Shown: piece after piece, positions 634 to 31,142 of the stretch
Position numbering within the stretch: the stretch's first letter is position 1
How the letters are laid out: the number at the start of each line of letters is the position of its first letter
Source: Reyranella sp.
GTDB taxonomy: Bacteria; Pseudomonadota; Alphaproteobacteria; Reyranellales; Reyranellaceae
Assembly: GCA_019750135.1 (NCBI GenBank)
Contig: JAIEOV010000005.1
Location: 124,001 to 188,000 of the forward strand
DNA: 64,000 nucleotides
Reading direction: 5' to 3'
The notes under the pieces: generated by a model
What the model saw: only the letters and a program-made list of their open reading frames with translations
Told to the model about the DNA's origin: nothing
Databases searched by the model: none
Made by a program: the position numbers and the translations under genes

Positions 634-647
634 GATCGCCTCTTCCG

Positions 648-675: not shown

Positions 676-695
676 GGCAAGAGAAGACGCTGTTG

Positions 696-2996
696 TTACT
701 CCGCCGCCATCCTCATCGGCCTGGCGGCGTCGATGACCTCGCTGAGGCGCGGCGGGGACAGGGGGAGGTCGGTCACGCGCACGCCGATGGCGCGCGAGAC
801 GGCGTTGCCGACGGCGGCGATCGGCGGAACGATCGGCACTTCGCCGACGCCGCGCACGCCGTAGGGATGCTGCGGGTTGGGGACCTCGACCAGGATGGTC
901 TCGATCTTCGGCAGGTCCGAGGCCACCGGCATGCGGTAGTCGAGGAAGCCCGGATTATCGAGCTTGCCCTTGGCGTTGTAGATGTACTCCTCGTTCAACG
1001 CCCAGCCGATGCCCTGCACGGCGCCGCCCTGCAGCTGGCCCTCGACGTACGACGGATGGATCGCCGTGCCGACGTCCTGCGCCGCGGTGTAGCGGCCGAT
1101 ATGGACGCAGCCGGTATCCTCGTCGACCTTGAGATCGACGCAGTGCACGCCGAAGCCCGGGCCGGCGCCGGTGACGTTGAGCTGGGCATGGCCGTTGATC
1201 GGCCCGCCGGTCCGTCCCGCCTGGGCGGCGATGTCGGCCAGCGAGAGCGGCTCGAACGTGCCGACCTGGTTGCCGGCCGGCTTGGCCATGCCGCCCTCCC
1301 AGATCACCGCCTCCGGATCGATCTTCCAGATCTTGGCGGCGCGCACCTTGAGCTCGCGGATCATGTCGCGCACCGAGTTCACCACGGCGAGACCCGTGGC
1401 AAAGGTGACGCGGCTGCCGCCGGTCACGAAGTTGAAGCCGATCGACGCCGTATCGGCAATGATCGGCCGCACCTTGTTGTAGTCGACGCCGAGCTCCTCG
1501 GCCGCCATCAGGGCAAGCGAGGCGCGGCTGCCGCCGATGTCGGGATTGCCCGAGATCACCGTCACCGATCCGTCCTCGCCGACATGGCTGGCGGCGCTGG
1601 AATCGGCGCCGATGTTGAACCAGAAGCCGGCGGCGATGCCGCGGGCATAGCCGTGCTTCGGCGGCGTGCGGTAGTGCTGCGAGTGCTTCACCGCCTCCAA
1701 GGTCTCGACCATGCCGATGGTGTTGAAGGTGACGCCATAGGCCGTCTTGGTGCCGGCCTTGGCCGCGTTCTTCAGGCGCAGGTCGATCGGATCCATGTCG
1801 AGCTGCAGGGCGAGCATGTCGAGCGTCGACTCGACGGCCCACGCCGAGATCGGCGCGCCGGGGGCGCGATAGGCCGCGACCTTGGGCCGGTTGCTGACGA
1901 CGTCGAAGCCCTCGATGTAGACGTTGTCGATGTCGTAGCAGGCGAAGCTGCACATGCAGGCCGGTCCGACCGGCGAGCCCGGGAAGGCGCCCGCCTGCAT
2001 CTGGACGATGCACTCGGCGGCGACGATGCGGCCGTCCCGCATGGCGCCGATCTTGACCTTGACGTTGCCGCCCGGCGCCGGGCCGGAGGCGCGGAACACG
2101 TCCTCGCGCGACATCGTCATCTTCACCGGCTTGCCGGACTTCTGCGACAGCCGCATGGCCAGCGGCTCGAGATAGACCACGGTCTTGCCGCCGAACCCGC
2201 CGCCGATCTCGGTCGGCGTCACGCGGATCTGCGAGGTCTCGATGCCGAGCAGGCGGGCGCAGAAGCCGCGCACCTGGAAGTGGCCCTGCGTCGTCGTCCA
2301 GACCTGGACCTGGCCGTCCTCGGCGGCGGACGCCAAGGTGGCGTGCGGCTCGATGTAGCCCTGGTGCACGGCCTGCGTCGTGTAATCCTTCTCGATCACG
2401 ACCTCGGCCTCAGCGAAGCCCGCCTTGGCGTCGCCCTTCTTGAACTCGATGCGCTTGGCGATGTTCGACGGCGTGCTGGCCGGCGGGTTGGCGCCTTCGG
2501 TCAGCAGGTGGTCGTGCAGGATCGGCGCGCCGGGCTTCATCGCTTCGGCGACGTCGATGACGTGCGGCAGCACCTTGTAGTCGACCTTGATCAGGGCCAG
2601 CGCCTGCTTGGCGATCGCCTCCGACACCGCGGCGACGGCGGCGACGGGATGGCCCTCATAGAGCGCCTTCTCGCGCGCCATGATGTTGCGCGTGATGTCG
2701 CGCATGTTCACCTGCATCTCGCCGGTCGGCACGATGAGGTTGGCCTGGTCGGGAAAGTCGGCCGCGGTGATGACCGCCTTGACGCCGTTCAGCGCCAGGG
2801 CCTTCGAGGTGTCGATCGACTTGATCTCGGCATGGGGGTGCGGCGAACGCAGCACCTTGCCGATCAGCTGGCCCGGCAGGTTGAAGTCGGCGCCGAAGCG
2901 GGCGCGGCCGGTCACCTTGTCGGCGCCGTCGGGACGATCGGGGCGCGTGCCGATCCACTTGTACTTGCCTTCGGTATTGGGGCGATGCTCGCTCAT
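696..2996 (-). CDS. Molybdenum hydroxylase, molybdopterin-binding large subunit (xanthine dehydrogenase family)
   Basis: A 766-residue catalytic subunit expected to bind the Mo-molybdopterin cofactor and hydroxylate a substrate with water as oxygen donor. The N-terminal part (PDGADKVTGRARFGADFNL) is the usual start of the family. A GGGFGGK segment near residue 260 and AYRAPGAP near residue 375 are the cofactor and substrate loops. The C-terminal GVRGVGEVPIVPP carries the conserved Glu expected to act as catalytic base. The loop reads AYRAPG, not the AYRCSFR of true CO dehydrogenase, so this is not a CO oxidiser. The start at 2996 overlaps the stop of the iron-sulfur subunit (ATGA). Substrate is unknown; the neighbouring enolase-superfamily gene hints at catabolism of a hydroxy acid or aromatic. 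Confidence 0.9.
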   Translation of the reverse strand: MSEHRPNTEGKYKWIGTRPDRPDGADKVTGRARFGADFNLPGQLIGKVLRSPHPHAEIKSIDTSKALALNGVKAVITAADFPDQANLIVPTGEMQVNMRDITRNIMAREKALYEGHPVAAVAAVSEAIAKQALALIKVDYKVLPHVIDVAEAMKPGAPILHDHLLTEGANPPASTPSNIAKRIEFKKGDAKAGFAEAEVVIEKDYTTQAVHQGYIEPHATLASAAEDGQVQVWTTTQGHFQVRGFCARLLGIETSQIRVTPTEIGGGFGGKTVVYLEPLAMRLSQKSGKPVKMTMSREDVFRASGPAPGGNVKVKIGAMRDGRIVAAECIVQMQAGAFPGSPVGPACMCSFACYDIDNVYIEGFDVVSNRPKVAAYRAPGAPISAWAVESTLDMLALQLDMDPIDLRLKNAAKAGTKTAYGVTFNTIGMVETLEAVKHSQHYRTPPKHGYARGIAAGFWFNIGADSSAASHVGEDGSVTVISGNPDIGGSRASLALMAAEELGVDYNKVRPIIADTASIGFNFVTGGSRVTFATGLAVVNSVRDMIRELKVRAAKIWKIDPEAVIWEGGMAKPAGNQVGTFEPLSLADIAAQAGRTGGPINGHAQLNVTGAGPGFGVHCVDLKVDEDTGCVHIGRYTAAQDVGTAIHPSYVEGQLQGGAVQGIGWALNEEYIYNAKGKLDNPGFLDYRMPVASDLPKIETILVEVPNPQHPYGVRGVGEVPIVPPIAAVGNAVSRAIGVRVTDLPLSPPRLSEVIDAARPMRMAAE

Positions 2997-3475
2997 CGGG
3001 CGGACTCCCTCATTTCGGCGGCCACTTCGAGGACCGCGGTGACGATCTTGTCGTAACCCGTGCAGCGGCAGAGGTTGCCCGCCAGCCAGTAGCGGACCTC
3101 GTCCTCGGTCGGGTTGGGATACTTCTCGAGCAGGGACTTGGAGGCGATGAGGAAGCCCGGCGTGCAGATGCCGCACTGGAGCGCCGCCATCTCGACGAAC
3201 TTCTTTTGCAGCGGATGCAGCTTGTCGCCCTCGGCCATGCCTTCGATGGTCTCGATCTTCATGCCCTCAGTCTCGGCGGCGAGGACCAGGCAGGAGCAGA
3301 CCAAGCGGCCGTTGACGGTGACGCTGCAAGCGCCGCAGTCACCCGAGCCGCAGCCTTCCTTGCTGCCGGTGAGCCCGAGATTGTCGCGCAGGACATCGAG
3401 CAGGGTCTGGTTGGCGTCGCACAGGAACTCGGTGGGCGCGCCGTTGATGGTGGTGTTGACGTGGATCTTGGCCAT
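2993..3475 (-). CDS. Molybdenum hydroxylase, [2Fe-2S] subunit
   Basis: A 160-residue small subunit that passes electrons between the molybdenum centre and FAD. The N-terminal plant-ferredoxin-like domain has the cluster loop GCGSGDCGACSV (residues about 42-53) with a further Cys in RLVCSC. The C-terminal helical domain has CGICTPGF and LCRCTGY, which bind the second cluster. Length and order are normal for the CoxS/XdhA-small family. It starts with ATG at 3475, 17 bases after the FAD subunit stop, and ends in a 4-base overlap with the large subunit. Confidence 0.92.
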   Translation of the reverse strand: MAKIHVNTTINGAPTEFLCDANQTLLDVLRDNLGLTGSKEGCGSGDCGACSVTVNGRLVCSCLVLAAETEGMKIETIEGMAEGDKLHPLQKKFVEMAALQCGICTPGFLIASKSLLEKYPNPTEDEVRYWLAGNLCRCTGYDKIVTAVLEVAAEMRESAR

Positions 3476-3492
3476 GGTGCGTGAAATTCCTC

Positions 3493-4383
3493 TTAAACCG
3501 GACGGTGGCCGCGGTGTTCGATGCCGTTGATGCGATCGCGCGCGATCATGGCCGAGCGCTTGAGCAGCACGCCGGCGATCTTGGTGCGGTATTTGATGGT
3601 GCCGCGCTTGTCGTCGATCGGCTTGCAGGCTTCCGAGCAGGCCGCCGCCGCCGCATCGAGCGCCGCGTCGTCGAGCTTGGAGCCGATCAGCGCCTTGGCC
3701 GCCTTGTCGACCCGCAGCACGGTGGGCGCGACGGCGCCGAGGCCGACGCGCGCGTCGGTGACGGTGTCGCCCTTCATGGTCAGCGAGACGCCGACGCCGA
3801 CGACGGCGATGTCCATCTCGGTGCGCGGGATCAGGCGCAGGTAGGCGTCCGACGACCCCTTCGGGCGCTTGGGCAGGGTCAGGCTGACGACGATCTCGCC
3901 GGGCTTCAGCGAGGTCCTGCCCGGGCCGGTGCAGAACTCCTCGACCGGGACCTTGCGCTTGCCGGTGGGGCCAGCGACGTTGACGATGCAGCCCGCGGCG
4001 ACCAGGGCCGGGACGCTGTCGGCGGCCGGCGAGGCGTTGCACAGGTTGCCGCCGGCGGAGGCACGGCCCTGGACCTGCGTCGAGCCGATCAGGTTGCAGG
4101 CCTCGATCACGCCCGGCCAGGCCTTGCGCAGCTTCTTGTTCTCGCCCAGCACGGCGGCCGGCGTCGCGGCGCCGATGGTGAAGCTGCCGTCCTTCTCGGT
4201 GACGGTCACCATCTCGGGGATCTTCTTGACGTCGATGATCACCCCGGGGGTGCGGGCGCCGGACTTCATCTGGACCAGAAGGTCGGTGCCTCCGGCCAGG
4301 ATGTAGCCCTTGCCCTTGGCGGCCTGCATGTACTTCACCGCCTCTTTGACGGTTTTTGCAGACTGATATTGGATTTCACTCAT
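3493..4383 (-). CDS. Molybdenum hydroxylase, FAD-binding medium subunit
   Basis: A 296-residue CoxM-type flavoprotein subunit. The N-terminal FAD domain contains AGGTDLLVQMK (about residues 30-40) and the second flavin loop ASAGGNLCNASPAADSVPA (about residues 110-128). The C-terminal CO-dehydrogenase-flavoprotein domain follows. The order FAD, iron-sulfur, molybdopterin is the usual coxMSL order. It is the first hydroxylase gene after a 129-base gap from the mandelate-racemase-type gene, so it may have its own promoter or be read through from 5610. Confidence 0.92.
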   Translation of the reverse strand: MSEIQYQSAKTVKEAVKYMQAAKGKGYILAGGTDLLVQMKSGARTPGVIIDVKKIPEMVTVTEKDGSFTIGAATPAAVLGENKKLRKAWPGVIEACNLIGSTQVQGRASAGGNLCNASPAADSVPALVAAGCIVNVAGPTGKRKVPVEEFCTGPGRTSLKPGEIVVSLTLPKRPKGSSDAYLRLIPRTEMDIAVVGVGVSLTMKGDTVTDARVGLGAVAPTVLRVDKAAKALIGSKLDDAALDAAAAACSEACKPIDDKRGTIKYRTKIAGVLLKRSAMIARDRINGIEHRGHRPV

Positions 4384-4451
4384 GCGGCGGCGTCTCCCCT
4401 GAATCCCTTACGGTCGAAGGCGGTGTATCTGAGCGGACTGCAAGCCGCATA

Positions 4452-4502
4452 GCAAGCCAGACGTGGCCCTCCTTCGCTGCTGCGCGGCTTCGGAGGGCTT
4501 GC
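4452..4502. repeat. Nested inverted repeats in the gap before the hydroxylase genes
   Basis: GCCCTCC at 4466-4472 pairs with GGAGGGC at 4492-4498. GCAAGCC at 4452-4458 pairs with GGCTTGC at 4496-4502. The two stems share bases and cannot both form. This could be a processing or terminator-like site, or a copy of a dispersed intergenic repeat. Confidence 0.45.
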
Positions 4503-4512
4503 GCTACGAAAT

Positions 4513-5610
4513 TCACGCCCGGAACGACTTGATCGCGGCCTCGTCGAACGTCAAGCCGAGGCCCGGCTTCTGCGGCAGGACGAGGTGGCCGTCCTTGATC
4601 TCCGGCGTCTCCTCGTAGAGGCAGAGCATCCACGGCATGTATTCCACGGTCAAGCCGTTGGGGCAGGCCGCCACCATGTGCACCAAAATCTCGGGCATGA
4701 CGTGGCTGACGATCGGCAGGTTGAAGGCCTCGGCCATGCCGGCGACCTTCATCCATTGTGTGACGCCGCCGACGCGCGCCAGGTCGACCATGACGATGTC
4801 GACCGAGCAGGCTTCGATCATGTGGCGGAACGGCACGATGCCCCAGACATACTCGCCGCCGGCGATCGGCGTCTTGAGCGCGGCGGTGACGCGGGCGAGG
4901 CCGGGGAAGTCGTCGCAGGTGGTGACGTCCTCCAGCCAGAACAGGCCGACGCCCTCCTCCTCGACGCGATGGCCGATCTGGATCGCCTGCTCGGGCCGCC
5001 AGCGCTGGTTGATGTCGCACATCAGCTTGATGTCGGGGCCGATCGCCTCGCGCACGACGCGCACGCGGCGCACCTCTTCCGCCGGAGTCGGATTGCCGGG
5101 CAGCGCCATCTGGGTCTTCATCTCGCGGAAGCCCTTCTGGATCAGGATCTGCGCGGCGCGCTGCGCCTGGTCGTCCGAGAGGCCGCGGCGCAGCGAGCCT
5201 GAGGCATAGGTCGGCACGCGGTCGCGATGGCCGCCCAGAAGCTTCCAGAGGGGCTGGTCGAGGGCTTTGCCCTTGATGTCCCACAGCGCGGTGTCGATGG
5301 CGCTGATCGCCAGGGTGAAGATGCCGCCCAGCCCGCCGCCGGGATCGCCGACGCGCAGCTTGGCGATGACAGCCTCGACGCGCATCGGGTCCTCGCCGAC
5401 GGCCGCGGCCGCGAGATCCTCGATGGCGGCATGCAGGCTGCGCGTCAGCCGGCCGCCATAGAGCGTGACGCCGATGCCTTCGATGCCGGAATCGGTGCGC
5501 AGCCGCACGGTGACGATGGGCCGCTTGCGGCCGGCTTCCTCCGGCATGTTGGCCAGGGGATCGTCCTCGGGGACGAGCAAGGTGGCGACTTCATAGCTCG
5601 CGATCTTCAT
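4513..5610 (-). CDS. Mandelate racemase / muconate lactonizing enzyme family protein (enolase superfamily)
   Basis: A 365-residue enolase-superfamily enzyme that would abstract a proton alpha to a carboxylate. An N-terminal capping domain (MKIASYEVATLL onward) is followed by a barrel with metal ligands in LMCDINQRW, FWLEDVTTCDD and GGEYVWG, and a C-terminal His in IVSHVMPEILVH. The Lys-containing segment is GFREMKTQ rather than the typical KxK, so the exact reaction (racemase, dehydratase or cycloisomerase) cannot be assigned. It is the probable first gene of the minus-strand operon with the molybdenum hydroxylase, suggesting stepwise breakdown of one carboxylic acid. Confidence 0.88.
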   Translation of the reverse strand: MKIASYEVATLLVPEDDPLANMPEEAGRKRPIVTVRLRTDSGIEGIGVTLYGGRLTRSLHAAIEDLAAAAVGEDPMRVEAVIAKLRVGDPGGGLGGIFTLAISAIDTALWDIKGKALDQPLWKLLGGHRDRVPTYASGSLRRGLSDDQAQRAAQILIQKGFREMKTQMALPGNPTPAEEVRRVRVVREAIGPDIKLMCDINQRWRPEQAIQIGHRVEEEGVGLFWLEDVTTCDDFPGLARVTAALKTPIAGGEYVWGIVPFRHMIEACSVDIVMVDLARVGGVTQWMKVAGMAEAFNLPIVSHVMPEILVHMVAACPNGLTVEYMPWMLCLYEETPEIKDGHLVLPQKPGLGLTFDEAAIKSFRA

Positions 5611-6035
5611 GGCGCGCCTTCTCCCGGAATTGCTGTCAGCCCGCCGAAAACGCCGTCATCCCGAGCGTCGCGAGGGACCTGTTGTTGCGTGCCAGGAATT
5701 TCCGCATTTCTCGCATTTCGCGCTACCCCCCTCCGGCGGTGGTGCGCATCGCGGGAATTGCATGGTTCAGACGACGTTCAGACCTTGTCATGCACATCAT
5801 AACTGAAGTGCTCATTCAGGGCAAGGTCCCGGCTGTGAAAAGTCGACTTTTGAGCCTCCAGGAGACCCCAGGAATGGGCGTCCTCTGCGCGATCACACCA
5901 CTCGTTGTCTTCGACGAGTCGATCCATCGCGCGCCCACCGTCTTCGGTCGAGAGGGTTTTTGCGTCCCAAAGAGGCCCCAGCGGCGCAAAAACCCCTATT
6001 ACGTTTGTACGGCACGATACCAAAGGTGCGTCGGC
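5611..6035. other. Gene-poor AT-richer stretch with repeat fragments
   Basis: No convincing gene is seen. At about 5657-5683 there is GTCATCCCGAGCGTCGCGAG, a form typical of short dispersed intergenic repeats in alphaproteobacteria. The rest is visibly AT-richer than the flanks and contains the inverted repeat at 5954-5995. An 81-codon minus-strand frame (5778-6023) has no family resemblance. Confidence 0.4.
5954..5995. repeat. 11-bp perfect inverted repeat
   Basis: GGGTTTTTGCG at 5954-5964 and CGCAAAAACCC at 5985-5995 are perfect inverted complements 20 bases apart. It lies just downstream (minus sense) of the antitoxin gene. It may be its terminator, or a site left by a mobile element. Confidence 0.5.
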
Positions 6036-6320
6036 TCACGCTGCTTGCCTGACCCGCACCTCGACTCGAAGCCCGGCTGCACTTGCCATGTTTATCAGCG
6101 TATCGACGCCAAAGAGGTTGACCTTGCCTCGCATGAGATCGGACACGCGCGGCTGGGTGACGCCGAACATCGTCGCCGCCTCAGCCTGGGACAGGCCCTG
6201 CGCCTTGATGTGGTCTTTCAATGCCATCATGAGTTCCGAACGAAGCTTCATGTTCTCGGCCATTGCCGACGTATCTTCGATGGCATCCCAGACACTGGAG
6301 AAGCGCTTCTTCTTGCTCAT
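6036..6320 (-). CDS. higA: XRE-family antitoxin, HigA type
   Basis: A 94-residue DNA-binding antitoxin-like protein. An N-terminal helical part (DAIEDTSAMAENMKLRSEL) precedes a helix-turn-helix, LSQAEAATMFGVTQPRVSDL (about residues 43-62), and then RGKVNLFGVDTLINM. This is the layout of HigA antitoxins paired with Gp49-like HigB toxins, which normally lie just upstream and overlap by ATGA. Here the upstream partner is only a 41-codon remnant (6317-6439), so the antitoxin looks orphaned. It could still repress its own promoter or neutralise a toxin elsewhere. The surrounding DNA is AT-richer, consistent with transfer. Confidence 0.8.
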   Translation of the reverse strand: MSKKKRFSSVWDAIEDTSAMAENMKLRSELMMALKDHIKAQGLSQAEAATMFGVTQPRVSDLMRGKVNLFGVDTLINMASAAGLRVEVRVRQAA

Positions 6321-6439
6321 CGGTTCAACTCCTTCAACAGCGCACCAAAGCGCGACGTTGCCAGATCGAGATCAGCTTTGGATGTCTGCCGGGTCGTCTT
6401 CTTGGAGCTATTCCAGTCTATACAAATCTTTGTATATTC
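6317..6439 (-). pseudogene. HigB/RelE-type toxin remnant, C-terminal end only
   Basis: Reading minus-strand from 6439, an open frame of 40 codons ends in a TGA that overlaps the antitoxin ATG (6317-6320). It translates to a basic tail including SSKKTTRQTSKADLDLA and ends FGALLKELNR. This resembles the conserved C-terminus of Gp49-like HigB toxins, where a KKTxxTPKxxIxxA motif precedes the last helix. An in-frame TGA at 6440-6442 and unrelated sequence upstream show that the first two thirds of the toxin are gone. The catalytic core is therefore absent. Confidence 0.65.
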
Positions 6440-6637
6440 TCAAGGCGCCGCGCCGGCCCGACGCCACTTGCTTGGAAGACGAAGCGACGCAGCCGGCCAA
6501 AACGTTAGAGGGCAAAACGCTGGGTGCCGGCCCTGGGGCCTATAATGTTTTCCGGCGACCACGAAATCCTGGCCGAACGTTGGACACCGGAGTGTCAAAC
6601 GTTTCGTCACCGTTTCTCCAACGCGCGAGGCGCCAGG

Positions 6638-6832
6638 ATGAAGACCGAGCGCCAGAAGATGACGCGGGCGCGCGATCTCTGACAGGCGCTGAACGCCACG
6701 CGCGAGCCCGAGGCGGACGAGCCGGCGTTGTTCAACTTCACCTGCGTCGTGCTGGGCAAGCCCGTGCACATCGGCTCGGACGTATGGATGGCCGGCGGCG
6801 CGATCATCCTGCCCGGCGCGCGGAAGCGGGTA
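6638..6832 (+). pseudogene. Broken maltose/galactoside O-acetyltransferase (Maa/NodL-like)
   Basis: The frame begins MKTERQKM and continues ARDL, then an in-frame TGA (6680-6682), then QALNATREPEADE, PALFNF and PVHIGSDVWMAGGAIILPGA. These are recognisable start, middle and hexapeptide-repeat parts of sugar O-acetyltransferases, a family of about 185 residues. Here they are compressed into about 65 codons by internal deletions plus the stop. No function is expected. Confidence 0.7.
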
Positions 6833-12130: not shown

Positions 12131-12800
12131 GACGTCCTGCGACTGTTGGAAACCTGGGACTCGGGGCCGAATGCAATCTTTAGTCGATAGACGCCGGCGG
12201 GCCAATCCCAATCCGCGTGGTCTCGGCGAGCGGCGGCCTCCCGCATCCAACGACACTTGATGTACTGGCCTGAGGTTCATCGCGATGGGGCGAACCGCTG
12301 GACGGGCATCGATCCGTCTGCCCCTTCCGGTCCTGGCGGCGGCCCAGCGCTGTCCTCTGAAAGCGGACAGAAGAGACATTTGGCGTTCCTTGGCACGACC
12401 GCTGGTCACGAGAGTTTCACTGGGTTTTGCTAGACCCCCAATCACCGGCGAAGCCATTGAATCTTCGATCTTTTCGAATTTCGCTAGTTTTGCTGGCCGT
12501 TTCACTCACTCCCCCGAACCGTGCTTCCGACGCGTCGCACGATGAAAACCAGGCCCGGCAGGGCTGCCGTCGGGCGATGGTATTGCGGATGAACGATGCA
12601 TAGAGCAGAGCCGCCGGAGGCGAGCACAAGGTCAATATAACTAAAGTGCCCTATCTAGTCAACTACGGTTTTAGTTATTGCGTCCCATAAGGGGGCTTTC
12701 GACGCAATATCTCCGGGGTCAGGCACCGTGCCAGCAGTGCAGGCAATCATCGGCCTCGCGCCAACCCGTCATGATCACCGGGCGGACCCGCTGGCCGGCC
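12131..12800. other. Long non-coding stretch with repeat-like and promoter-like sequence
   Basis: No supported gene is seen. Around 12340-12385 the segment CTCTGAAAGCGGACAG followed by AGAGACAT resembles short dispersed repeats common near alphaproteobacterial genes. An AT-rich island at about 12630-12680 holds the inverted repeat listed separately. The part 12680-12800 is GC-rich and featureless. It separates the cyclase gene from the truncated monooxygenase. Confidence 0.4.
12637..12678. promoter_or_regulatory. Orphan operator-like inverted repeat in an AT-rich promoter patch
   Basis: ATAACTAAA at 12637-12645 and TTTAGTTAT at 12670-12678 are perfect inverted complements about 24 bases apart, in locally AT-rich DNA. 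The arrangement resembles an operator flanking a promoter. No regulator or clear target gene starts next to it in either direction; the nearest is the minus-strand cyclase 500 bases away. It may be left over from a gene lost in rearrangement. Confidence 0.4.
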
Positions 12801-13745
12801 TCACGAGATCAGCGAGCCGCTGCGCCGATCCGTGACCTCCTTGCGGCCGGTCTTGGCGGCGCGTTCGGCGGCGTGCTTGTCGATCATGCGCTGGGCGGCC
12901 TCCTGGCGCTGGCGCGAGAGGACGTCGCGGTTGCGGGTCACCCAGTCGTAGGACTCGTTGCGCGCGACGTTGCTGCCGTCGAAGACCGGCATGACGTAGC
13001 GCGCATAGAGCTCGTAGGAGCGCTTGGTCGCCTCCCAGTCGGCGATGTTGTTGGCCATGTGCAGCATGACCCCGAACTCGCCCTGCTTGGCCTGGAGCTT
13101 GCGGATCTGGGCAATGGCATCGTCGGGCGTGCCGACGACGCCGATCTTCACCCTCATCCAGTAGTCGACGATGTCCTCGCCCGGCGGCACGTTGAAACGC
13201 GGCATGTTGTTGTTGATGTAGTCGACATAGGCCTGCATGCCGAAGCGCACGTTCTCGCGCGCCTTGTCGCGCGTCTCGGCGATGTGGAACGGCGCCACCA
13301 GGCGCAGCCGCCGCGGATCCATGGTGCGGCCGTGCTCGGCGGCGATCTCGCAAGCGGTCTGCCAGTTGGTGGTGAGCGCGTCGAAGCCGGTGGTCTCCGC
13401 CGCCGCGACGCACAGCATGCCGAGATCGTACTTGCCGGCCAGCCGGCCGCCCGACGGCGTGACGGCGCTGGCGACCGCGACCTCGGGGAACGGGTCGCTG
13501 TAGGGAAGCAGGTGCAGGCGGGCTTCCTTCAGCGAGTACCAGTCGGTCTTCTCGGTGACGACCTCGCCGCGGAACAGGCGCAGGATGAGGTCGAGCGCCT
13601 GCTCCATGCGGTCGCGCTGGGTGTTGGGATCGATGTCGAGCATCATGGCGTCCGACGCCAGCAGGCCGGGCCCGGCGCCGAACATGACGCGGCCGCGCGT
13701 CTGGTGGTCGAGCTGGATGATGCGGTTCTGCGCGCGCAATCTCTA
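12801..13745 (-). pseudogene. Luciferase-like flavin monooxygenase, N-terminus missing
   Basis: About 312 residues of an LLM-class flavin-dependent oxidoreductase remain, from RIIQLDHQTRGRVMFGAGPG through DWYSLKEARLHLLPYSDPFPE to the normal C-terminal helix. Family members are about 400-430 residues and begin with a strand and flavin-binding region of about 100 residues that is absent here. In minus sense, homology stops at about 13745, exactly where DNA becomes AT-richer and plus-strand genes begin. The gene appears to have been cut by the arrival of the 13.75-18.6 kb insert. A shortened protein starting MRAQNRIIQL is unlikely to be active. Confidence 0.75.
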
Positions 13746-13754
13746 CGGGTAGCA

Positions 13755-14066
13755 ATGCGATCACGACAGCGTTCTTGCCGGCAACAGTGCGCTCGATGCT
13801 TGGTCCGATTGGAACGCCTAGCCAAACCCGAGCGTCGCAGCAGGCTGGATGAGAAGCGGGAAAAATTTCGAGAGCTTGCTGAAGCAAGAACAAACAAAGC
13901 CATCGAGTCGATCGGTCGGATCGGGAATCTTTCGAACAGACAAATCTACGAGTATGAGCCTGCAGAAGTGCGAAAGGTCATTCGCGCTCTAAAGGACGCC
14001 GTTGCTTCCGTCGAAGCGCGCTTCGAATCGCCGCGCGGAAAGACGGGGGGGAGCTTCAAACTCTAA
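13755..14066 (+). CDS. Small helical protein, first gene of the GHKL ATPase operon
   Basis: A protein of up to 103 residues, highly charged and helical. The core is KREKFRELAEARTNKAIESI, then GRIGNLSNRQIYEYEPAEV and a helix RKVIRALKDAVASVEARF. The RTNKAI / IGNLSNR / YEY pattern looks like a conserved small family, but no function is known to me. It ends 9 bases before the ATPase start, so the two are almost certainly co-transcribed and co-translated. The ATG at 13755 is uncertain: it abuts the monooxygenase break, and a shorter protein from near 13850 would fit the conserved part. Codon use is AT-richer than the flanking genes. Confidence 0.6.
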   Translation: MRSRQRSCRQQCARCLVRLERLAKPERRSRLDEKREKFRELAEARTNKAIESIGRIGNLSNRQIYEYEPAEVRKVIRALKDAVASVEARFESPRGKTGGSFKL

Positions 14067-14075
14067 GAGGGATTT

Positions 14076-15902
14076 ATGACTACAGGCGCCGTGGCGGCTC
14101 TGGAGGTCGCCGACGAAGAATTTTTGGTCGCGAGTCTCATCGAGCGCTGTCCTAAGGCGATGATGATTCGCGAGTTGTTGATGAACGCGATAGAGGCGGC
14201 GCAGCAGGCTCCGCAAACTCGTCGTTTGATCGAAATAAGCGCAATCGAGATCGACAATACCCAGAAGCTGTGCATTTGGAACACAGGCCCTGGTATGGAT
14301 GCCGGCGAGTTGCTCAGAATCTGTAATATCGCATCATCCATTGGGAAAGAGAAAAGTCTCACCGGGAATTTCGGTATGGGTGCGAAGGTTGCATCACTGC
14401 CGTCGAACCAACGGGGCATGCGCTATCGATCCTGCAAAAAGGGCCGCGTGCATGAAGTGATTTTATGCAAGCGGGACGGCATCTACGGTAGGCTGCGGCG
14501 TCATTTTCCGGATACCGGTGAATACTTGGAAGTCATCGACGTCACTGACTTAGCGTCGAAAGAAGGCCGTTCTCTTGATGAGGACTGGACGGAAGTCGTC
14601 CTACTAGGCAATAGCGTTCATCAGGACACGGTCAAGGACCCCTATAGCGGGGACCCCGAGCAGGATAGCCAGTGGCTGGCAACTTATCTGTACCACCGAT
14701 TCTATCGACTTCCAGATGGAGTAAAAGTCACTCTTCTCAAAGGCACGAATAAACTCGATGGCAATCGACAATTCGAACCTATTCCCGCGAGGTTGCGGCA
14801 CTTCGAGAAGCATGAATCGGTACGCCTTCCAAGCGGCATCGTTGTGCATTACCTGTACGATGCACCCTACGACAAGGCGTCGGGGACTGGGCACAACAGG
14901 TCGATCAGTGGTGCGGTCGCTTCGGCAGTTAGTACAAGCGCAGTCGTATATCGAAATGAAATGTATGACGTTCGGCGAGGACGCAATTGGACATTTGATG
15001 CACCGATTTTCGGTATTCCGTTTGGTGCGAAGCACATCTCAATTCATATCGAAGTCCCCGATGATTTTACCGTTGTTCCCGACGCTTACCGCCAGTTCCT
15101 TCGCCACACGGCAGGTGAGCAACCGCATGTTGATGCGCGTGACTTTGCAGGCTTGGTTCGGGAGAACCGACCCGAATGGCTTATCGACCTAATCCGATCG
15201 CTCGCTCCGGATAGCGCATCCAATGACGAGGTCCGAAGCGAACTTCAGAAGCTACTCAACCATTTGCGCGTAAAGCGGGTCAGCCCAAAGGTTGTACCAA
15301 ACGGACCTACCAATGTGACAGCTGGAAGCGGCCCCGCAATCGACAACGCTGGTAGCGTGAGCAGCGGAAACGGGGGCGAAGGTGCACGGCCCAAGCCTTC
15401 CGACTTATCTATTGTTCCAACAGGTGCAAAACGGGCAGAGATGTTCAAGAATCTCGAACGTGCACCAGAAATATTTCTGCTCTACTCGGAGGCGGAGGTA
15501 GAGGAGAAAGGCATAAGAGGCCGCGCTGCCCTCTACACCATGGAGGTCGGGCAGCTATTTGTGAACATGCTTTATCCGGCAATAGGCGAGATGAAGTCGC
15601 AACTTGAGGCAGAGTACGCAGATACGAATGATCCCGATCTGATGCGCTCGCTCGTCCACCAGCACGCTGAAAAGACCATGATCCTTCGCGTTGGACGGAC
15701 GGTCGTTTACGCCCTGGCAAAGCAGTTGAACAAGGAATGGGATCAGAAGGCACTCGACACCGCGTCATCGCCTGAGAGCCTCAGCATGGCGGCCGACGAC
15801 TTCGGCGATGCAATGCAGAACGTGCGCCGTGCCATTGGCAAGGCACTTCGCATGAAGCGCAACGCTGGCGATGCAATAGAATCGACAGAAGCGGCTGCTT
15901 AA
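14076..15902 (+). CDS. GHKL-type ATPase (Hsp90/MORC-like), stand-alone
   Basis: A 608-residue protein with an N-terminal Bergerat ATP-binding fold. The N-box is RELLMNAIEAA (E33, N37). The G1 box is WNTGPGMD (N69, G71, G73), with Asn where Asp is usual. The G2 lid is GNFGMGAKVAS (G100, G102, K104). A second domain (about 170-370) follows, with VRLPSGIVVHYLYD and WTFDAPIFGIPFGAKHISIH. A Gly/Ser-rich linker lies at about 415-445, and the C-terminal third is helical. There is no kinase phosphoacceptor, receiver or DNA-gyrase domain. An AGAGGGA ribosome-binding site precedes the ATG at 14076. Similar stand-alone GHKL ATPases occur in bacterial defence gene clusters. That role is inference from the accessory context. 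Confidence 0.75.
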   Translation: MTTGAVAALEVADEEFLVASLIERCPKAMMIRELLMNAIEAAQQAPQTRRLIEISAIEIDNTQKLCIWNTGPGMDAGELLRICNIASSIGKEKSLTGNFGMGAKVASLPSNQRGMRYRSCKKGRVHEVILCKRDGIYGRLRRHFPDTGEYLEVIDVTDLASKEGRSLDEDWTEVVLLGNSVHQDTVKDPYSGDPEQDSQWLATYLYHRFYRLPDGVKVTLLKGTNKLDGNRQFEPIPARLRHFEKHESVRLPSGIVVHYLYDAPYDKASGTGHNRSISGAVASAVSTSAVVYRNEMYDVRRGRNWTFDAPIFGIPFGAKHISIHIEVPDDFTVVPDAYRQFLRHTAGEQPHVDARDFAGLVRENRPEWLIDLIRSLAPDSASNDEVRSELQKLLNHLRVKRVSPKVVPNGPTNVTAGSGPAIDNAGSVSSGNGGEGARPKPSDLSIVPTGAKRAEMFKNLERAPEIFLLYSEAEVEEKGIRGRAALYTMEVGQLFVNMLYPAIGEMKSQLEAEYADTNDPDLMRSLVHQHAEKTMILRVGRTVVYALAKQLNKEWDQKALDTASSPESLSMAADDFGDAMQNVRRAIGKALRMKRNAGDAIESTEAAA

Positions 15903-16047
15903 TCGCTGCTAGAAACCGACGCACGCGAACGGCATTGATCCTCGGTCGGAGGGCCGCTGCTCACGGGATCTCCGTTCGTCTGAAGCAGCGCGGGCGCCGA
16001 CGCCAGTTCGTTGAGCCCAGAAATGCCCAACGCACTCTCACACTGAG

Positions 16048-16650
16048 CTAGTCGTCAGTTCTATTGACCACCGTTGTGAGGAAATACAGTGCCCAGAGCA
16101 CTGTCACAGTAAGCACGGAAAGAGCGGCTGATAGTCCAAACACTCCTGACAAAAGTATAGCTTGCCGAACATTCGGCCGAGCCTTCGTCCAGACAAGTAT
16201 CGCGTCGTGCAAGAGGGTCGCGCCGACCGTCGCAATCAGCATAGCCAACCCGACGAAGCACAGGTAGCCAAGCAAATAGCAGACGAACTGCCTCAGCGTC
16301 AGAGCTTCACCGTCCAAAAGCAGCGGCGCTCCGACAATACGCCGATCAAGGTGTTGGCCTGGTGCGCCCATCGCCACAGCCGCAAGCGCACCGACCATAA
16401 ACGGAACAGCCATGATCAAAAGGTCGCGAACGAGCTTGATCGGGCCGCTATCCCCGAACAGCGGTGGCTTCGGGTCTATGAAACAGTAGCCAGCGAACAG
16501 CGCCAAGGTCCAAGCGGCGGGAACAAAGAAATCGTAAACGGATTTCTCTGGATGCTTGATCGATAGGTACCGCAGCGGCGCAAGCAGACGCTTCCGCGAC
16601 GGCGGTGGCCCGCTGTGAACGTCGCTCAGTTCTACTTGGTGTATTCCCAT
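16048..16650 (-). CDS. Four-helix membrane protein of the accessory island
   Basis: A 200-residue protein with four hydrophobic segments: about 42-60 (VPAAWTLALFAGYCFI), 75-95 (LIMAVPFMVGALAAVAM), 120-142 (FVCYLLGYLCFVGLAMLIA) and 163-190 (ILLSGVFGLSAALSVLTVTV). A basic N-terminal cytoplasmic stretch (SRKRLLAPLRYLSIKHPEK) comes first. The ATG at 16650 overlaps the end of the upstream gene by 19 bases in another frame, so translation is probably coupled. No enzymatic motif is seen. By size and topology it could be a pore-type effector or an anchor for the upstream soluble protein. It ends 145 bases from the convergent ATPase gene. Confidence 0.65.
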   Translation of the reverse strand: MGIHQVELSDVHSGPPPSRKRLLAPLRYLSIKHPEKSVYDFFVPAAWTLALFAGYCFIDPKPPLFGDSGPIKLVRDLLIMAVPFMVGALAAVAMGAPGQHLDRRIVGAPLLLDGEALTLRQFVCYLLGYLCFVGLAMLIATVGATLLHDAILVWTKARPNVRQAILLSGVFGLSAALSVLTVTVLWALYFLTTVVNRTDD

Positions 16651-17204
16651 ACCTTGTCCTTTTCGAGCAGCGCGATCATGTCGGCTACGGTCTTATCGTC
16701 TACATCGTTGCTCCACGACTTGTGGTTGTCCGGACGGTCAATGAAATCCCTCGGGCAAAGTAGCAAATCTTGCGCACTATCAAGTTGGTGATGCTGCACG
16801 CTGCCACCAAGGACGTCACCTTGTGCCGACTTGAAATAAATTTTCGTCTTGTACCCTCGCTCATCGTAAATTGCCCGCAATTGCGCGGCCCAGCCCAGTC
16901 GCTCCTGCTCATCCGCAGGGCCCTGGCCGGCACCAACGCGAATGGTCACATCGGCCAAAAAGTCTTTATCCTTGATAGCGGTCTTGTCGCCGATGCTCTG
17001 CTTCTCCGAGCGCTTCGTGAACACGAGGTGCGACAATTTCTGTCCTGCAGTAGTGCCGGCACCCAGGCGACGGCTCACGTCGGCCAGGAGCTCGAGCTTA
17101 GGCGTGTAGTGGTAAGGTCTTTCTTGGCGATCTACGTCGAGTACAGAATGCCTACAATGAAGCCGCGAGGAGACAAAACGACAACGCGCGTTTTGAAAAA
17201 GCAA
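16632..17204 (-). CDS. Unrecognised soluble protein coupled to the membrane protein
   Basis: The frame gives up to 190 residues; the start is uncertain because its first 30 codons overlap, antisense, the coding-like fragment at 17102-17332. The body has two similar segments, LELLADVSRRLGAGTTAGQ and DFLADVTIRVGAGQGPAD, suggesting an internal duplication of about 55 residues. A mixed alpha/beta region (AAQLRAIYDERGYKTKIYFK) and LLLCPRDFIDRPDNHKSW follow. I do not recognise the family and see no known catalytic motif. The 19-base overlap with the membrane protein implies joint function. AT-richer codon use matches the rest of the insert. Confidence 0.5.
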   Translation of the reverse strand: MLFQNARCRFVSSRLHCRHSVLDVDRQERPYHYTPKLELLADVSRRLGAGTTAGQKLSHLVFTKRSEKQSIGDKTAIKDKDFLADVTIRVGAGQGPADEQERLGWAAQLRAIYDERGYKTKIYFKSAQGDVLGGSVQHHQLDSAQDLLLCPRDFIDRPDNHKSWSNDVDDKTVADMIALLEKDKVWEYTK

Positions 17205-17332
17205 AGGCTAGGCAACCAATCGAAGAACTACTGATCGTCTTTGGCCCGTATCTCCTTGCGTTGGCCTTTGCGCTGAGATTTGCGCGGACTTCGGCCGATG
17301 TGCGATTTGAACGATTGAAGGCCTCCGCTTGA
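17102..17332 (+). pseudogene. C-terminal fragment of a plus-strand membrane protein
   Basis: A 76-codon frame with no ATG runs from an in-frame TAG (17099-17101) to a TGA (17330-17332). It translates to a strongly protein-like tail: VQNAYNEAARRQNDNARFEK, a hydrophobic segment IEELLIVFGPYLLALAFALR, then FARTSADVRFERLKASA. It reads as the last helix and tail of a membrane protein whose first part has been lost. It overlaps the start of the minus-strand gene at 16632-17204. Confidence 0.45.
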
Positions 17333-17417
17333 CAGGGATGAGCCTGTACCAAGATGCCAGCAAAGGCGAAATTCGTTTCAGCTCTGACAGTTGTCTCCCT
17401 TCCAGACTAGGTGGCTC

Positions 17418-18572
17418 CTAGGCCCAAGCAATTTCAAAGCTTCCCCCCGAGACAGGCCATGCGCAGCCAATACCGTGAGACCTCGCAAAGGCGATAACCC
17501 TTTTGGGAGGTCGACAGCCGACGACGATTACCAGAGCCTTAACACTGGCACGTTCGTAGAAGCGATACTCAAGAAGTTGCCCTACCGCTAGCCGTACAGC
17601 AAAACGGCTTGCCCCTGGCGTTGGTGCTGGCTTTATCTCTATAAACGTCCGCCCCTTAATCGAATGCTGTCCCACAAGGTCTACACTCTTATGGCGCCCA
17701 TCGAAGCTCATAAATCCAGCCGTTAGGCCAAATCGCACAAAGCTCTCCTTGAGCATTTCATGCTGAGGTTGAATCTCAACTTCGTATGCATCGACGTATT
17801 TTCGATAGGGTGAACTAGCAGCAGAACCAGTTCGTCGCCAAGAGAAGTCACTTCCCGCGCCGGCATTCTTGAAAGTGGCCGTCGAGCGAACCACGAACTC
17901 CTCGTCATCGGAGAACCATTCGAGAATAGAACCTTTGCATCCTGCATCTGCTAAGATCTTGCGAACCTTGTAAGGATTTTTGAGTGGCTGAGACTGTGCC
18001 CAGCGCCAAGTTAATGGGCTGCCACTTGCAGTAGTCAAATCAATCGACCGTAGAGGATACTCTTCCTCCGCCCACCAAAAGTCCCTGACTCGACACATCC
18101 AGGGAACATCAATGTTCAACAGAGCACGCAAGCTCAGTTTACGCGGGTCTCTGCTTCGCAATCGCCGGTCTTTGACTTCCTCAAGCACGGCAAGTTCGGG
18201 CCAAAAGGCTTGAGAACCGAATTTGGATCGCTTCTTTAAGTGCTGCTTCAACTTCTCATCGATCGGCCGGACATCCACGGCAGCGCCCACAAGACACCGT
18301 TGTCCGTTGTCGGGCTGGCGGCTAGTCATGATGATACCTACTCTTTGACTGGCAGCGAGTTCGCCGACCGGTCCACCATGCGCCGTTGTATAGAAACCGC
18401 GCCAAGCGCCTACGCGGTACAGCTCAGTATTGTTCCATTCCTCATGGCCAAAGCCATACTGTGCAGCAAACGACGGCGGATTGGCCGAGTAGTTCGATCT
18501 TGTGTCCAATGATGGGCATTTCCACTGCTTTGAGTTCCAAACCAAGCAATTGTGTTCGATGAATTTTGTCAT
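17418..18572 (-). CDS. Putative PD-(D/E)xK nuclease with an N-terminal recognition-like domain
   Basis: A 384-residue protein. The C-terminal domain (about 255-384) has the pattern of a restriction-endonuclease fold: D298 in SVDLVG, E312 and K314 in RTFIEIKPA, then Q332 and Y336 in AVGQLLEYRFY, a common motif-IV pair. The N-terminal part (about 1-130) contains YGFGHEEWNN and YRVGAWRGFYTT, as found at the front of several nuclease proteins; a base- or modification-reading role is only a guess. The middle (about 130-255) is unassigned. No methyltransferase is nearby, so a type IV-like or abortive-infection nuclease fits better than a classical restriction-modification system. The ATG at 18572 has a weak ribosome-binding site. 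Confidence 0.65.
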   Translation of the reverse strand: MTKFIEHNCLVWNSKQWKCPSLDTRSNYSANPPSFAAQYGFGHEEWNNTELYRVGAWRGFYTTAHGGPVGELAASQRVGIIMTSRQPDNGQRCLVGAAVDVRPIDEKLKQHLKKRSKFGSQAFWPELAVLEEVKDRRLRSRDPRKLSLRALLNIDVPWMCRVRDFWWAEEEYPLRSIDLTTASGSPLTWRWAQSQPLKNPYKVRKILADAGCKGSILEWFSDDEEFVVRSTATFKNAGAGSDFSWRRTGSAASSPYRKYVDAYEVEIQPQHEMLKESFVRFGLTAGFMSFDGRHKSVDLVGQHSIKGRTFIEIKPAPTPGASRFAVRLAVGQLLEYRFYERASVKALVIVVGCRPPKRVIAFARSHGIGCAWPVSGGSFEIAWA

Positions 18573-18685
18573 AGGGAGCCGCTTCTCGCCGAAGATGGCC
18601 TGAATACTGCAACAAAAAGTTGCATCGCCAAAGTCACGTTGCCACGCGAGCGCCCCTCTCGAAGCTTGGGGTGGCTGCGGTCGTC
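18573..18685 (-). promoter_or_regulatory. Upstream region of the nuclease gene with a short palindrome
   Basis: GCAAC-AAAAA-GTTGC at 18609-18623 is a perfect 5-bp inverted repeat around an A5 spacer, 37-51 bases upstream of the nuclease ATG. The position suits an operator or the start of the transcript. No other feature is seen in this stretch. Confidence 0.4.
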
Positions 18686-18916
18686 CTATGGGGTGTATCG
18701 CGCGTGAAAGCCCACGAGGCGCGCTTGGAATTTGTCGACGGATGATACAGGTGATTGGGCCGTACGACTGACCGCACTGGCATAGTACTCGATCACCACG
18801 GCGGACAGCGGCGACTGCATCCTGTTGGCGTGATCGACGATGACGTCGATCACGTAGTTGCCCAGGGCCTTGACGAACGTGGATTTGCAGTAGTTCTGCG
18901 TGCCGTCCGGACGCAT
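18686..18916 (-). pseudogene. Fragment of an FAD-linked (BBE-type) oxidase
   Basis: This encodes PDGTQNYCKSTFVKAL, VIDVIVDHANRMQSPLSA and VVIEYYASAVSRTA. These match the corresponding stretch of the intact oxidase at 31143-32528 almost residue for residue, and the DNA is nearly identical over about 130 bases (18783-18911 versus 31458-31587). Past that the match decays with a small internal deletion (FQARLVGFHARYTP versus FAARKAEYDVGFMAQWTDP). Only about one sixth of the gene is left. It marks the right edge of the rearranged region. Confidence 0.8.
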
Positions 18917-18982
18917 GCCCGCTTAAACGGCTAGAATCCCCCACGTCCCCGCTCGATCCAGCCACCCCTTCCCCCCCGTCCG

Positions 18983-20915
18983 TTGGGGACTGGCCGCCAA
19001 GTGTTCGCCATCCTCGCCCTGCTCGGCGCAATCGCGGTGCTGGTCACCAGCGTGCTGGGTTACCTGCAGGCGCGCGATGCGCTGCAAGGCCATCTACAAC
19101 CAGCTGACCTCGACCCGGAAGAGCAAGGTCCAGCAGGTCGAGATTTCCGCACCATCCGCAACGAGCTCTCGCAACTGGCCGGCTCGAAGGAAGCGATCGA
19201 CGCCGCGCGGGCGTTCCGCGCCACGTTCAACGAGCTCAATCGGGGCGAGGTGCCGGCCGATCTCCGCGGCAAGGTCGACGCCTGGTACGGCGCGCAGTTC
19301 ATGCCCGGCGTCCAGCGCCTGTCGGCCACGGAGGCAGACGTGAAGGCGTACCTGCCCGTCGATGCCGCCGGCTACTACCTGCAATACCACTACCTCGTCG
19401 CCAACCCCTACGACCGAGCGGCGCGAGCTGGTCGCCGATGCCGGCGACGGCAGCGCCTACAGCCAGCAGCACGCGATCTTCCACCCGCTGCTGCGCGACG
19501 CCGCCACGACTTTCGGCTTCTTCGACCTCATGCTGGCCGATCCGGCGTCCGGCCGCATCGTCTATGCCGTGCGCAAGGAAGTCGATTTCTCCGCCTCGCT
19601 GCGCAGCCCTCCCTTCCGGCAATCGAACCCCGCCCTGACGGTCGCCCACTGCGCCGGCGACGCCGACAAGGCGGTCGCCTGCCTGGAAGACTTCGCGCCC
19701 TATGCGCCCTCGGCCGGCGCGCCAATCGCCTTCATGGCCGCGCCGGTCATCGACAGGAACGCCGTGATCGGCGTGCCGATCGCGCAAGGGTCGTGACCGG
19801 CGGACGGCGCTGGCGCGAGGACGGATTCGGCGACACCGGCGAGGCCTATCTCGTCGGGTCCGACAACCGCGCGCGCTCCGGCCCGCGGGCGTTCTACGAA
19901 AACCGTACGCGCTTCCATGCCGAGCTCAAGGAGAGCGGCAGCGCCGACCAGGAGATCGACGCCATCCGCCGCTATGGCACGCCGGTGCTCCAGCAGCGCA
20001 TCGCCACCGAGGCCGTCCAGGCCGCGCTCGCCGGCACGGAGGGTGTCGGCGAGACCGTCGGCTATCGGGGGGTGCCGACGCTCGCCTCGTGGGGGCCGTT
20101 GTCGATTGCCGGCCTCAACTGGGTCCTGGTCGCCAAGATCGACGCCGCGGAGGCCTTCGCGCCGATCGACACGCTCCGGCGCAACCTGACCGTCGTCGGC
20201 GCCGTCGCCCTGCTGGTGGTGGTCGTGACCTCCGCCTGGCTGTCGGGCGCGCTGCTCGGACCGCTGCGGGAACTCACCGCCGGCGTGATGCGCTTTGCCG
20301 CCGGGGACTACGGCGCCCGGGTCGCCGTGCGCAGCCGCGACGAGATCGGCCGCCTGCGCACGGCGTTCAACGCCATGGTCGACGAGCTGCGCGAGAAGAA
20401 CACCCTCATCGAGAGCAAGAACCGCGAGAACGAGGAGCTGCTGCTCAACGTCCTGCCGGGGCCGATCGCCAACCGCCTGCGCGAGGCGAGAAGAACATCG
20501 CCGACGGCTTCGCCGAGGTCACGGTGGCCTTCGCCGACATCGTCGGCTTCACCGCCCTGTCGTCGCAGATGCCGCCGGCCGACGTCGTCACCCTGCTGAA
20601 CGGGCTGTTCACGCGGTTCGGCGAGGCGGCGCACGAGCTCGGCATCGAGAAGATCAAGACGCTGGGCGATGCCTCCATGGCGGTGCAGCGGCCCCGTCGT
20701 GGCCGGCGTGATCGGCAAGTCGAAGTACATCCATGACCTGTGGGGCGACACGGTGAACCTGGCGAGCCGCATGGAATCGGGCGGCTTGCCCGGCGCGATC
20801 CAGGTGACGCGGTCGGTGTACGACACGCTCAAAGGACCGCTTCGCCTTCGAGCCGCGCGGCCAGATCGACGTCAAGGGCCGCAGCGGCGTCGAGGCCTGG
20901 CTGCTGAAGATCTGA
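18983..20915 (+). pseudogene. Receptor-type adenylate cyclase broken by several frameshifts
   Basis: Joining three frames recovers a whole receptor cyclase: an N-terminal membrane helix (VFAILALLGAIAVLVTSVLG), a periplasmic sensor (QVEISA..., DFRTIRNELSQLAGSKEAID, ADVKAYLPVDAAGYYLQYHY), a second helix (VVGAVALLVVVVTSAWLSGA), HAMP (RELTAGVMRFAAGDYGARV) and a class III cyclase domain ([40 protein letters not shown]) ending GVEAWLLKI. The reading frame changes near 19083, 19140, 19412, 19795, 20490, 20690 and 20840. An upstream start could not be fixed; TTG at 18983 is the first candidate. With this many shifts it is a pseudogene unless the assembly is faulty here. Overall layout resembles the intact cyclase at 33829-35574. 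Confidence 0.8.
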
Positions 20916-30370: not shown

Positions 30371-30402
30371 TCCGGTACCACCAGCCATCAAAGGAGAGAC
30401 AC

Positions 30403-30771
30403 ATGGCGAGCGAAGAGACCAAGATCACGTCCGGCAGCCTGATCGCGGCCGAGAAGGTCGAAGGAACCGACGTCTACAATCGGGAGGGCGAGAAGCTCGG
30501 CACGGTCGACGACATCATGCTCGACAAGGTGAGCGGCAAGGCGATCTACGCCATCATGTCGTTCGGCGGCTTTCTGGGCATCGGCGAGAAGTACCATCCC
30601 CTGCCGTGGTCGACCTTGACCTACGACCAGAGCAAGGGCGGCTACGTCGTCAATCTCGACAAGAAGATGCTCGAAAGCGCCCCGACCTACGGCATGGACG
30701 AGGACTTCCTCTGGACGCCGGACTACGGCCGCCGGGTGGACAAGTACTACAACGCCCCGAGCTACTGGTAG
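30403..30771 (+). CDS. PRC-barrel domain protein
   Basis: A 122-residue protein with one PRC-barrel (about 18-95): LIAAEKVEGTDVYNREGEKL, GTVDDIMLDKVSGKAIYAIM and GEKYHPLPWSTLTYD. The tail LWTPDYGRRVDKYYNAPSYW is typical of stress-linked PRC proteins in alphaproteobacteria. GGAGAGAC precedes the ATG. It is divergent from the flavin-fold stress protein. It is likely cytoplasmic and involved in stress adaptation; molecular role unknown. Confidence 0.88.
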   Translation: MASEETKITSGSLIAAEKVEGTDVYNREGEKLGTVDDIMLDKVSGKAIYAIMSFGGFLGIGEKYHPLPWSTLTYDQSKGGYVVNLDKKMLESAPTYGMDEDFLWTPDYGRRVDKYYNAPSYW

Positions 30772-30793
30772 GTCTTGAGGCGAAACGAAGCGA

Positions 30794-30823
30794 GGGGCGT
30801 CGCGCCAGCGGGCGCGGCGCCCC
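30794..30823 (+). terminator. Strong GC-rich hairpin after the PRC-barrel gene
   Basis: GGGGCGTCGCGCC (30794-30806) and GGCGCGGCGCCCC (30811-30823) form a 13-bp stem with one G-U pair and an AGCG loop. It lies 23 bases after the stop and just before the convergent gene's stop at 30836. The T run is weak. Confidence 0.7.
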
Positions 30824-30835
30824 TTGCCGTTGCGA

Positions 30836-31054: not shown

Positions 31055-31142
31055 TGTCGTCGGTCTCTCCCGGCGACGATCCTAGAGAATCGCCGTCCGG
31101 GCGACACCTGCAAAGGCCGGCTTACCCACACCGCCCTGCGTT

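Follow-up and report, generated by a model that had tools for sequence, protein, structure and literature searches.

A small protein recurs upstream of dissimilar GHKL-type ATPases and forms a candidate two-gene defence cassette in a mosaic hotspot of Reyranella

Introduction

GHKL ATPases are already known from several bacterial conflict settings. MORC and paraMORC proteins, which join a GHKL domain to an S5-type domain, have been placed in restriction-modification (R-M) operons, as described in the available part of Iyer et al. (2008, PMC2292703); VcSduA, a GHKL-Shedu protein of Vibrio cholerae, is reported as a phage-defence protein (PMC12137116, available part); and CapK (HTH-STAS-GHKL) and CapS (STAS-wHTH) have been linked to immune operons (PMC13373217, available part). 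PDC-M33 and PDC-M53 are likewise known, as phage-defence candidates listed in PADLOC. Here we analyse a stretch of 64,000 nucleotides (nt) from Reyranella sp. (contig JAIEOV010000005.1, positions 124,001 to 188,000), hereafter the window, in which the gene of a small protein, P0005, stands directly before that of a GHKL ATPase, P0001, in a block of low GC content at 13.7-18.7 kb. We know of no account of how the GHKL ATPases of R-M loci are switched on. Among the literature matches listed, which covered few subscription papers and preprints, none was seen to describe this small partner or the fact that several GHKL families share it. A small partner common to separate GHKL families is the finding that we consider worth following up.

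Results

The conserved core of P0005 comprises its last ~70 amino acids (aa), with the motif KREKF..LAE.RT..A...I..IGNLSN...Y and a C-terminal FKL, and reads as helical. Of 56 small-protein hits, 33 carry FKL among the final eight residues of the frame, and 49 the looser F-x-[LIF]. P0005 matched no Pfam, PADLOC, NCBIfam or PHROGs family at E<=0.001, and its Planococcus homologue had no Pfam or PADLOC match. As a query on its own, the small protein was found on plasmids of Bacillota and Deinococcota, in 9 of the 398 genomes of a Pseudomonadota sample and in 21 of 385 genomes of a class sample (own genome counted in each; five of the 21 weak, with best E values of 7e-9 to 2.4e-7). IMG/VR contributed 11 contigs, and 3-4 phage records also carry it. 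The locus set described below comprises these hits except for three plasmid records, three of the four records from phages and two weakly matching places in genomes.

At 33 of the 47 loci fetched via the small protein alone, that is, 55 loci less the eight found via the ATPase, the gene that follows is of GHKL type. When L062 (contig end) and L134-L136 (E>1e-9) are dropped, the fraction among strong hits with sequence left becomes 33/43, in a set that includes close relatives (L056/L057, L120/L121, L059/L060). The motif pattern behind these calls was fixed post hoc, its N-box spacing having been changed after the sequences were seen (3/56 positive before, 36/56 after), and blastp homology brought in another five loci. 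Among control open reading frames (ORFs) of >=300 aa from the same loci, many of which are surely not genes, the pattern matched 7 of 295, or 4 of 292 without the three GHKL genes of the set (P0001, L120, L121). The 36 motif-positive ATPases, seven of the eight ATPase-found loci included, fall into four groups with no blastp link at 1e-3: family A, to which P0001 belongs (10 members), family B (~800 aa, 4 members), family C (~630 aa, 12 members, including PDC-M33A) and family D (~830 aa, 10 members, including L063). By computation, then, four GHKL-type families without detectable sequence similarity to one another repeatedly have the small protein encoded upstream.

Further arrangements were recorded among these loci. 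At L119 (G095:C16) the gene after that of the small protein encodes a protein of GmrSD_N/DUF262 type (PDC-M55C, 1.2e-58), which hints at a partner range wider than GHKL ATPases, and L120 and L121, from two genomes, show a fifth arrangement of small protein, 219-aa protein and 558-aa protein with GHKL motifs. Synechococcus phages S-CRES1/2 (L072) carry a homologue of the small protein, with no adjoining GHKL-type gene in S-CRES1; a decoy or a distinct use is possible.

P0001 is a GHKL-S5 ATPase of the MORC/Hsp90 kind in which the ATP-binding residues are kept. Its Bergerat-fold ATP-binding match lies above the curated cut-off (Table 1), and residues E33, N37, G71, G73, N98, G100, G102 and K104 are invariant in alignments of 18, 36 and 42 rows, with N69 invariant in the first two and nearly so in the third. 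The AlphaFold2 (AF2) model, with a predicted local distance difference test score (pLDDT) of 73.7, comprises an N-terminal Bergerat fold and S5-like transducer (~11-379), a low-confidence linker (399-460) and a mixed to helical C-terminal part (460-600); residues 11-379 match Hsp90, MORC2, SMCHD1 and Top6B. A sequence search of the PDB returned TRAP1 matches only, at E 0.3-1. The gene set had been described at the outset as matching no named system, and for the ATPase this holds, its best PADLOC match having E=0.037. A phage origin was rejected: tblastn against 50,697 phage records gave no match to P0001, and of 74 pattern matches in IMG/VR not one was confirmed. Elsewhere in the same genome lies another GHKL-type match, a 631-aa open frame with 31% identity over query residues 6-214 (L028, G000:C148:67243-67890), near a stretch that by eye resembles a transfer RNA.

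In the window 9 nt separate the end of P0005 from the start of P0001. Scanning up to 10 kb on each side of 15 other P0001-family loci (less on short contigs), we found a P0005 homologue ending directly before the ATPase at 8 of them; among the nine listed loci, from which L007 and L015 are omitted because a different start was chosen there, the small gene lies 10-18 nt from the ATPase start. The pair recurs in Alphaproteobacteria and on plasmids without the other three genes of the block. A small gene directly upstream at such short spacing might also mark a toxin-antitoxin-like pair, the small protein neutralising a toxic ATPase, but ATPases of the same family stand at 7 of the 15 loci without a small-protein match, and inspection by eye of the 420 nt before these ATPases showed no such gene; we judge this account improbable.

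Known defence genes lie beside some of the loci. On an Agrobacterium plasmid, a gap of 55 nt separates the pair from GajA (7.9e-221), behind which lies GajB (3.1e-178); according to PADLOC the two form a full Gabija operon. In Dinoroseobacter one 461-aa protein lies between the pair and an ATP-binding/UvrD pair homologous to that of Agrobacterium. Upstream, we also found an RT_UG13a defence-associated reverse transcriptase (DRT) gene on the opposite strand at G678, and a NERD/UvrD-type protein at L004 (C3a187, 5.2e-27). The pair might instead serve a non-defence role, such as the maintenance of mobile elements or the regulation of surface polysaccharides, and sit near defence genes only through shared mobility. 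A location on plasmids (7 plasmid records) fits such a role, as do the housekeeping-like or glycosyltransferase-like neighbours of some family members, but the Gabija and DRT neighbours speak against it, as does the partnership of the small protein with PDC-M33A and with ATPases linked to R-M, and we consider it unlikely.

R-M genes stand near several of the loci. Family C ATPases accompanied by M33B and DUF6339 (M33C) adjoin AlwI R-M, Vsr and Dcm genes in Planococcus and Dcm and Vsr genes in Deinococcus, while in Priestia an annotated DUF6339 gene follows the family C ATPase, with a MutH/Sau3AI enzyme nearby. Plasmids of five genera (Ensifer, Priestia, Planococcus, Deinococcus and Vescimonas) have annotated methylase, Vsr or restriction-enzyme genes in the vicinity of the small protein. 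By eye, from the sequence, Dcm- or Vsr-like genes were recognised at L111, L118, L122, L128 and L129; at L112, L116 and L127 there is a methylase-like gene in convergent orientation, read in the same way. These observations, together with the placing of MORC/paraMORC proteins in R-M operons (Iyer et al. 2008, PMC2292703, available part), would suit a view of the ATPases as accessory repair or DNA-maintenance factors of R-M, akin to MutL or Vsr rather than immune effectors, with the window pair a solo remnant. However, the R-M context is seen mainly for families other than that of P0001: inspection by eye of 13 listed loci of its family showed no methylase adjoining the ATPase, and the two-gene form stands alone there. 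This view, too, has in our estimation a low probability.

These data are best read as showing a putative subunit, with a docking or regulatory role, that MORC/Hsp90-like ATPases of defence and R-M have in common. Several observations count against it, beginning with the seven of 15 ATPase loci that have no small protein upstream. Another gene follows the small protein at 10 of the 43 strong loci, two of which (L120, L121) have a GHKL-type gene one further on; next genes that are not of GHKL type occur at L061 (cytosine methylase-like), L065, L066, L067 (disrupted by an insertion sequence), L072, L073, L119 and L131. Families B, C and D were called GHKL by the post hoc motifs, and their scanned members have no Pfam or NCBIfam match above cut-off, L063 of family D being the only one with a sub-threshold GHKL match in Pfam/NCBIfam; hhalign, with shallow profiles, found no link among the four families. 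The ATPase reading frame is split at L009 and L133. Around the ATPase at L005, L006, L008 and L009 the genes are housekeeping-like, and inspection by eye revealed none for defence; a branch of the P0001 family without the small protein adjoins genes that by eye resemble glycosyltransferases (L010, L012).

That branch comprises L010, L012 (two copies) and L014, with 39-45% identity and no small protein upstream, and at L014 the ATPase lies beside genes annotated as a TPR protein and an epimerase. A second function of this branch is possible.

The features of the block and of its edges are collected in Table 1.

Table 1. Features of the low-GC block of the Reyranella sp. window and of its edges (coordinates are window positions).
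Feature	Coordinates	Strand	Length	Evidence or remark
Luciferase-like monooxygenase remnant, without its first 89 codons	12801..13727	-		PF00296 5.7e-17; left mosaic edge
Small helical protein P0005 (putatively helical)	13755..14066	+	103 aa from ATG	Homologues matched before ATPase; start uncertain
GHKL ATPase P0001	14076..15902	+	608 aa	PF13589 2.2e-06, 28.2 bits against a cut-off of 25
PDC-M53B-like membrane protein P0002, intact	16048..16650	-	200 aa	PADLOC PDC-M53B 2.5e-17; phrog_8257 4.8e-09; syntenic in R. soli
5'-truncated PDC-M53A-like gene P0003	16632..17204	-	190-aa ORF	Homologous to R. soli P0129 (323 aa) only from 16632 to ~17114-17120
Putative nuclease-like protein P0004	17418..18572	-	384 aa	Motif reading; plasmid relatives of last third
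Gene fragment (labelled FAD oxidase in the preliminary description)	18760..18911	not assigned	152 bp	Right mosaic edge

The preliminary description of this DNA had presented the block as a single insert of about 5 kb, lower in GC than its flanks, which broke a monooxygenase gene on the left and carried five genes in two convergent groups. Its composition and layout are borne out: in 500-bp windows the GC content is 0.51-0.58 across 13.75-18.75 kb and 0.62-0.75 in the flanks, apart from a dip at 12250-12749 (0.574) and the edge window 13500-13999 (0.604), and two plus-strand and three minus-strand ORFs converge between the edges. The monooxygenase is broken as proposed, since its intact relative in G071 has 397 aa, of which the window retains residues 90-397. 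Homology stops at 13727/13728, and a search of the rest of the window did not recover the 89 lost residues. Stretches similar to the fragment at the right edge (84-88%) occur in the sister species Reyranella soli (88%), in two other genomes and in the window itself, where 31448-31586 is a second copy (88%). Transposon-like ends were rejected: a repeat search of 13400-19200 returned a single direct repeat, of 15 nt, together with two inverted pairs that are imperfect (73-78%), and the block is bracketed by none of them. The AT-richer block is real; a single insertion is not upheld, since 16045-17114 aligns at 90% to R. soli and this homology stops inside a gene. The view of an acquired, patchy block with a defence flavour stands in comparisons of presence and absence, P0001 occurring in only one of 61 genomes searched, the window's own.

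The block is instead a mosaic of three unrelated defence-type modules in a variable hotspot of the Reyranella genome. Contig C31 of R. soli is collinear with stretches of window 1-6661 down to its position 177890, and at 177635 it carries the counterparts of the two genes at 16045-17114. Long collinearity resumes at window position 31143, with scattered shared pieces in between (e.g. 18929-20915 and 30386-31120). This interruption from 6661 to 31143 identifies window 6.7-31.1 kb as a hotspot that is variable in both species.

One of the modules is a remnant of PDC-M53. P0003 has 93% identity to residues 162-323 of R. soli P0129, and its DNA homology to R. soli stops inside the gene at ~17114, which makes it the C-terminal half of a longer gene. 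P0129 itself matches PDC-M53A weakly in PADLOC (4.4e-05), and the window ORF has no PADLOC match. Of the components required for PDC-M53, the window has M53B and lacks a full-length M53A partner; the system is presumably dead here because the A gene is truncated, while both M53-like genes are whole in the R. soli hotspot. In a genus sample of 61 genomes, M53A homologues occur in 2, the window's own among them. Phage records yielded no match for P0129 and a single one, in a Salmonella phage, for P0002. At 3554-8236 of L024 (G012:C31:167001-187000), the R. soli hotspot also carries, beside its intact PDC-M53AB, an AAA ATPase and an HNH protein that we take by eye to be a Septu-like pair, a 332-aa beta-type protein and what is presumably a sce7726-like nuclease.

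The remaining module, P0004, is a putative nuclease. Its C-terminal region reads as PD-(D/E)XK-like (VDLVGQH..FIEIKP..QLLEY), and residues ~248-384 match plasmid-encoded stretches in 12 records, 10 of them listed; at two of these plasmid neighbourhoods that were inspected no system was recognised. The protein is rare, with three members in a large database, itself counted, and its AF2 model (pLDDT 36.9) is too poor for use of the fold.

The five genes had further been proposed to form one undescribed defence system, as their joint presence in one low-GC block might suggest. This was rejected on co-occurrence: the small protein does recur at the other ATPase loci, but the membrane protein, P0003 and the nuclease-like protein were matched at 0 of the 15, within up to 10 kb on each side (less on short contigs). 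The truncation of the M53A-like gene at ~17114, and the presence of M53AB in R. soli (G012), a genome in which no match to the ATPase was found, argue in the same direction and leave a single five-gene system with almost no probability.

Discussion

Taken together, we consider it somewhat probable that the complete module of the window is a two-gene cassette of P0005 and P0001, MORC/Hsp90-like and set in a mosaic, in which the small protein docks on and gates an ATPase that clamps invading DNA. Docking might proceed via the conserved helix and F-x-L tail of the small protein, which would then gate the ATPase, and the ATPase, as a dimer driven by ATP, would clamp shut on invading DNA or on a complex bound to it. 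For the pair alone, as in the window, the output might be direct silencing of the invading DNA, whereas in larger operons a signal could pass to partner proteins, of which M33B/C may be effectors. Because no nuclease is consistently linked to the two-gene form, we favour silencing or clamping, exerted directly, as its output. We infer a defence activity of the pair. A broader proposal, that the widespread, unnamed ~70-aa F-x-L protein is a modular trigger or adaptor and acts as one switch for at least four dissimilar GHKL immunity systems, of which the window pair would be the minimal form, we advance as tentative, at somewhat less than even chances.

A shared small partner would provide one handle on otherwise unlinked GHKL families and a marker for finding new systems, as well as a single small protein to be tested for binding to the various ATPases. 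The two-gene form, small enough for a direct test, could reveal how a bacterial MORC-like clamp acts when no nuclease accompanies it.

Among described systems, MORC and paraMORC proteins resemble P0001 in combining GHKL and S5-type domains and in their sporadic, mobile occurrence in R-M and nuclease contexts, according to the available part of PMC2292703. In contrast, the MORC-specific S5 motif (GhXhhpXXRhl) had no regular-expression match in P0001 or in the other proteins downstream of the small protein, and the family-specific features of paraMORC1-5 are a C-terminal restriction-endonuclease fold, TIR, ExxxH and others together with an R-M operon; the Pfam scan of P0001 matched no domain other than GHKL. 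The part of that text covered describes no small upstream partner, while P0001 has P0005. VcSduA shares the GHKL ATPase but, in the available part of its description, is fused to a nuclease, and no nuclease domain was matched in P0001. CapK and CapS, as far as their available description goes, are also encoded by two genes, one of them GHKL, but no STAS or HTH domain was matched in P0001 or P0005. T4-type RIIA resembles P0001 through a weak profile match (phrog_2979, 0.0013) and matches to the model, although P0001 had no tblastn match in phage records.

Candidate and named systems at or near the pair differ from it in other ways. PDC-M53AB is represented in the window by M53B and the C-terminal half of the M53A-like gene, the A gene being truncated. 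Gabija follows the pair on the Agrobacterium plasmid, but GajA and GajB have no match in the block, and GajA is a different kind of ATPase. P0001 has no match to PDC-M33A at E<=1 in PADLOC, and M33B and M33C (DUF6339) have none among nine scanned proteins of the block and its edges, yet PDC-M33ABC carries the same small protein upstream of its M33A ATPase.

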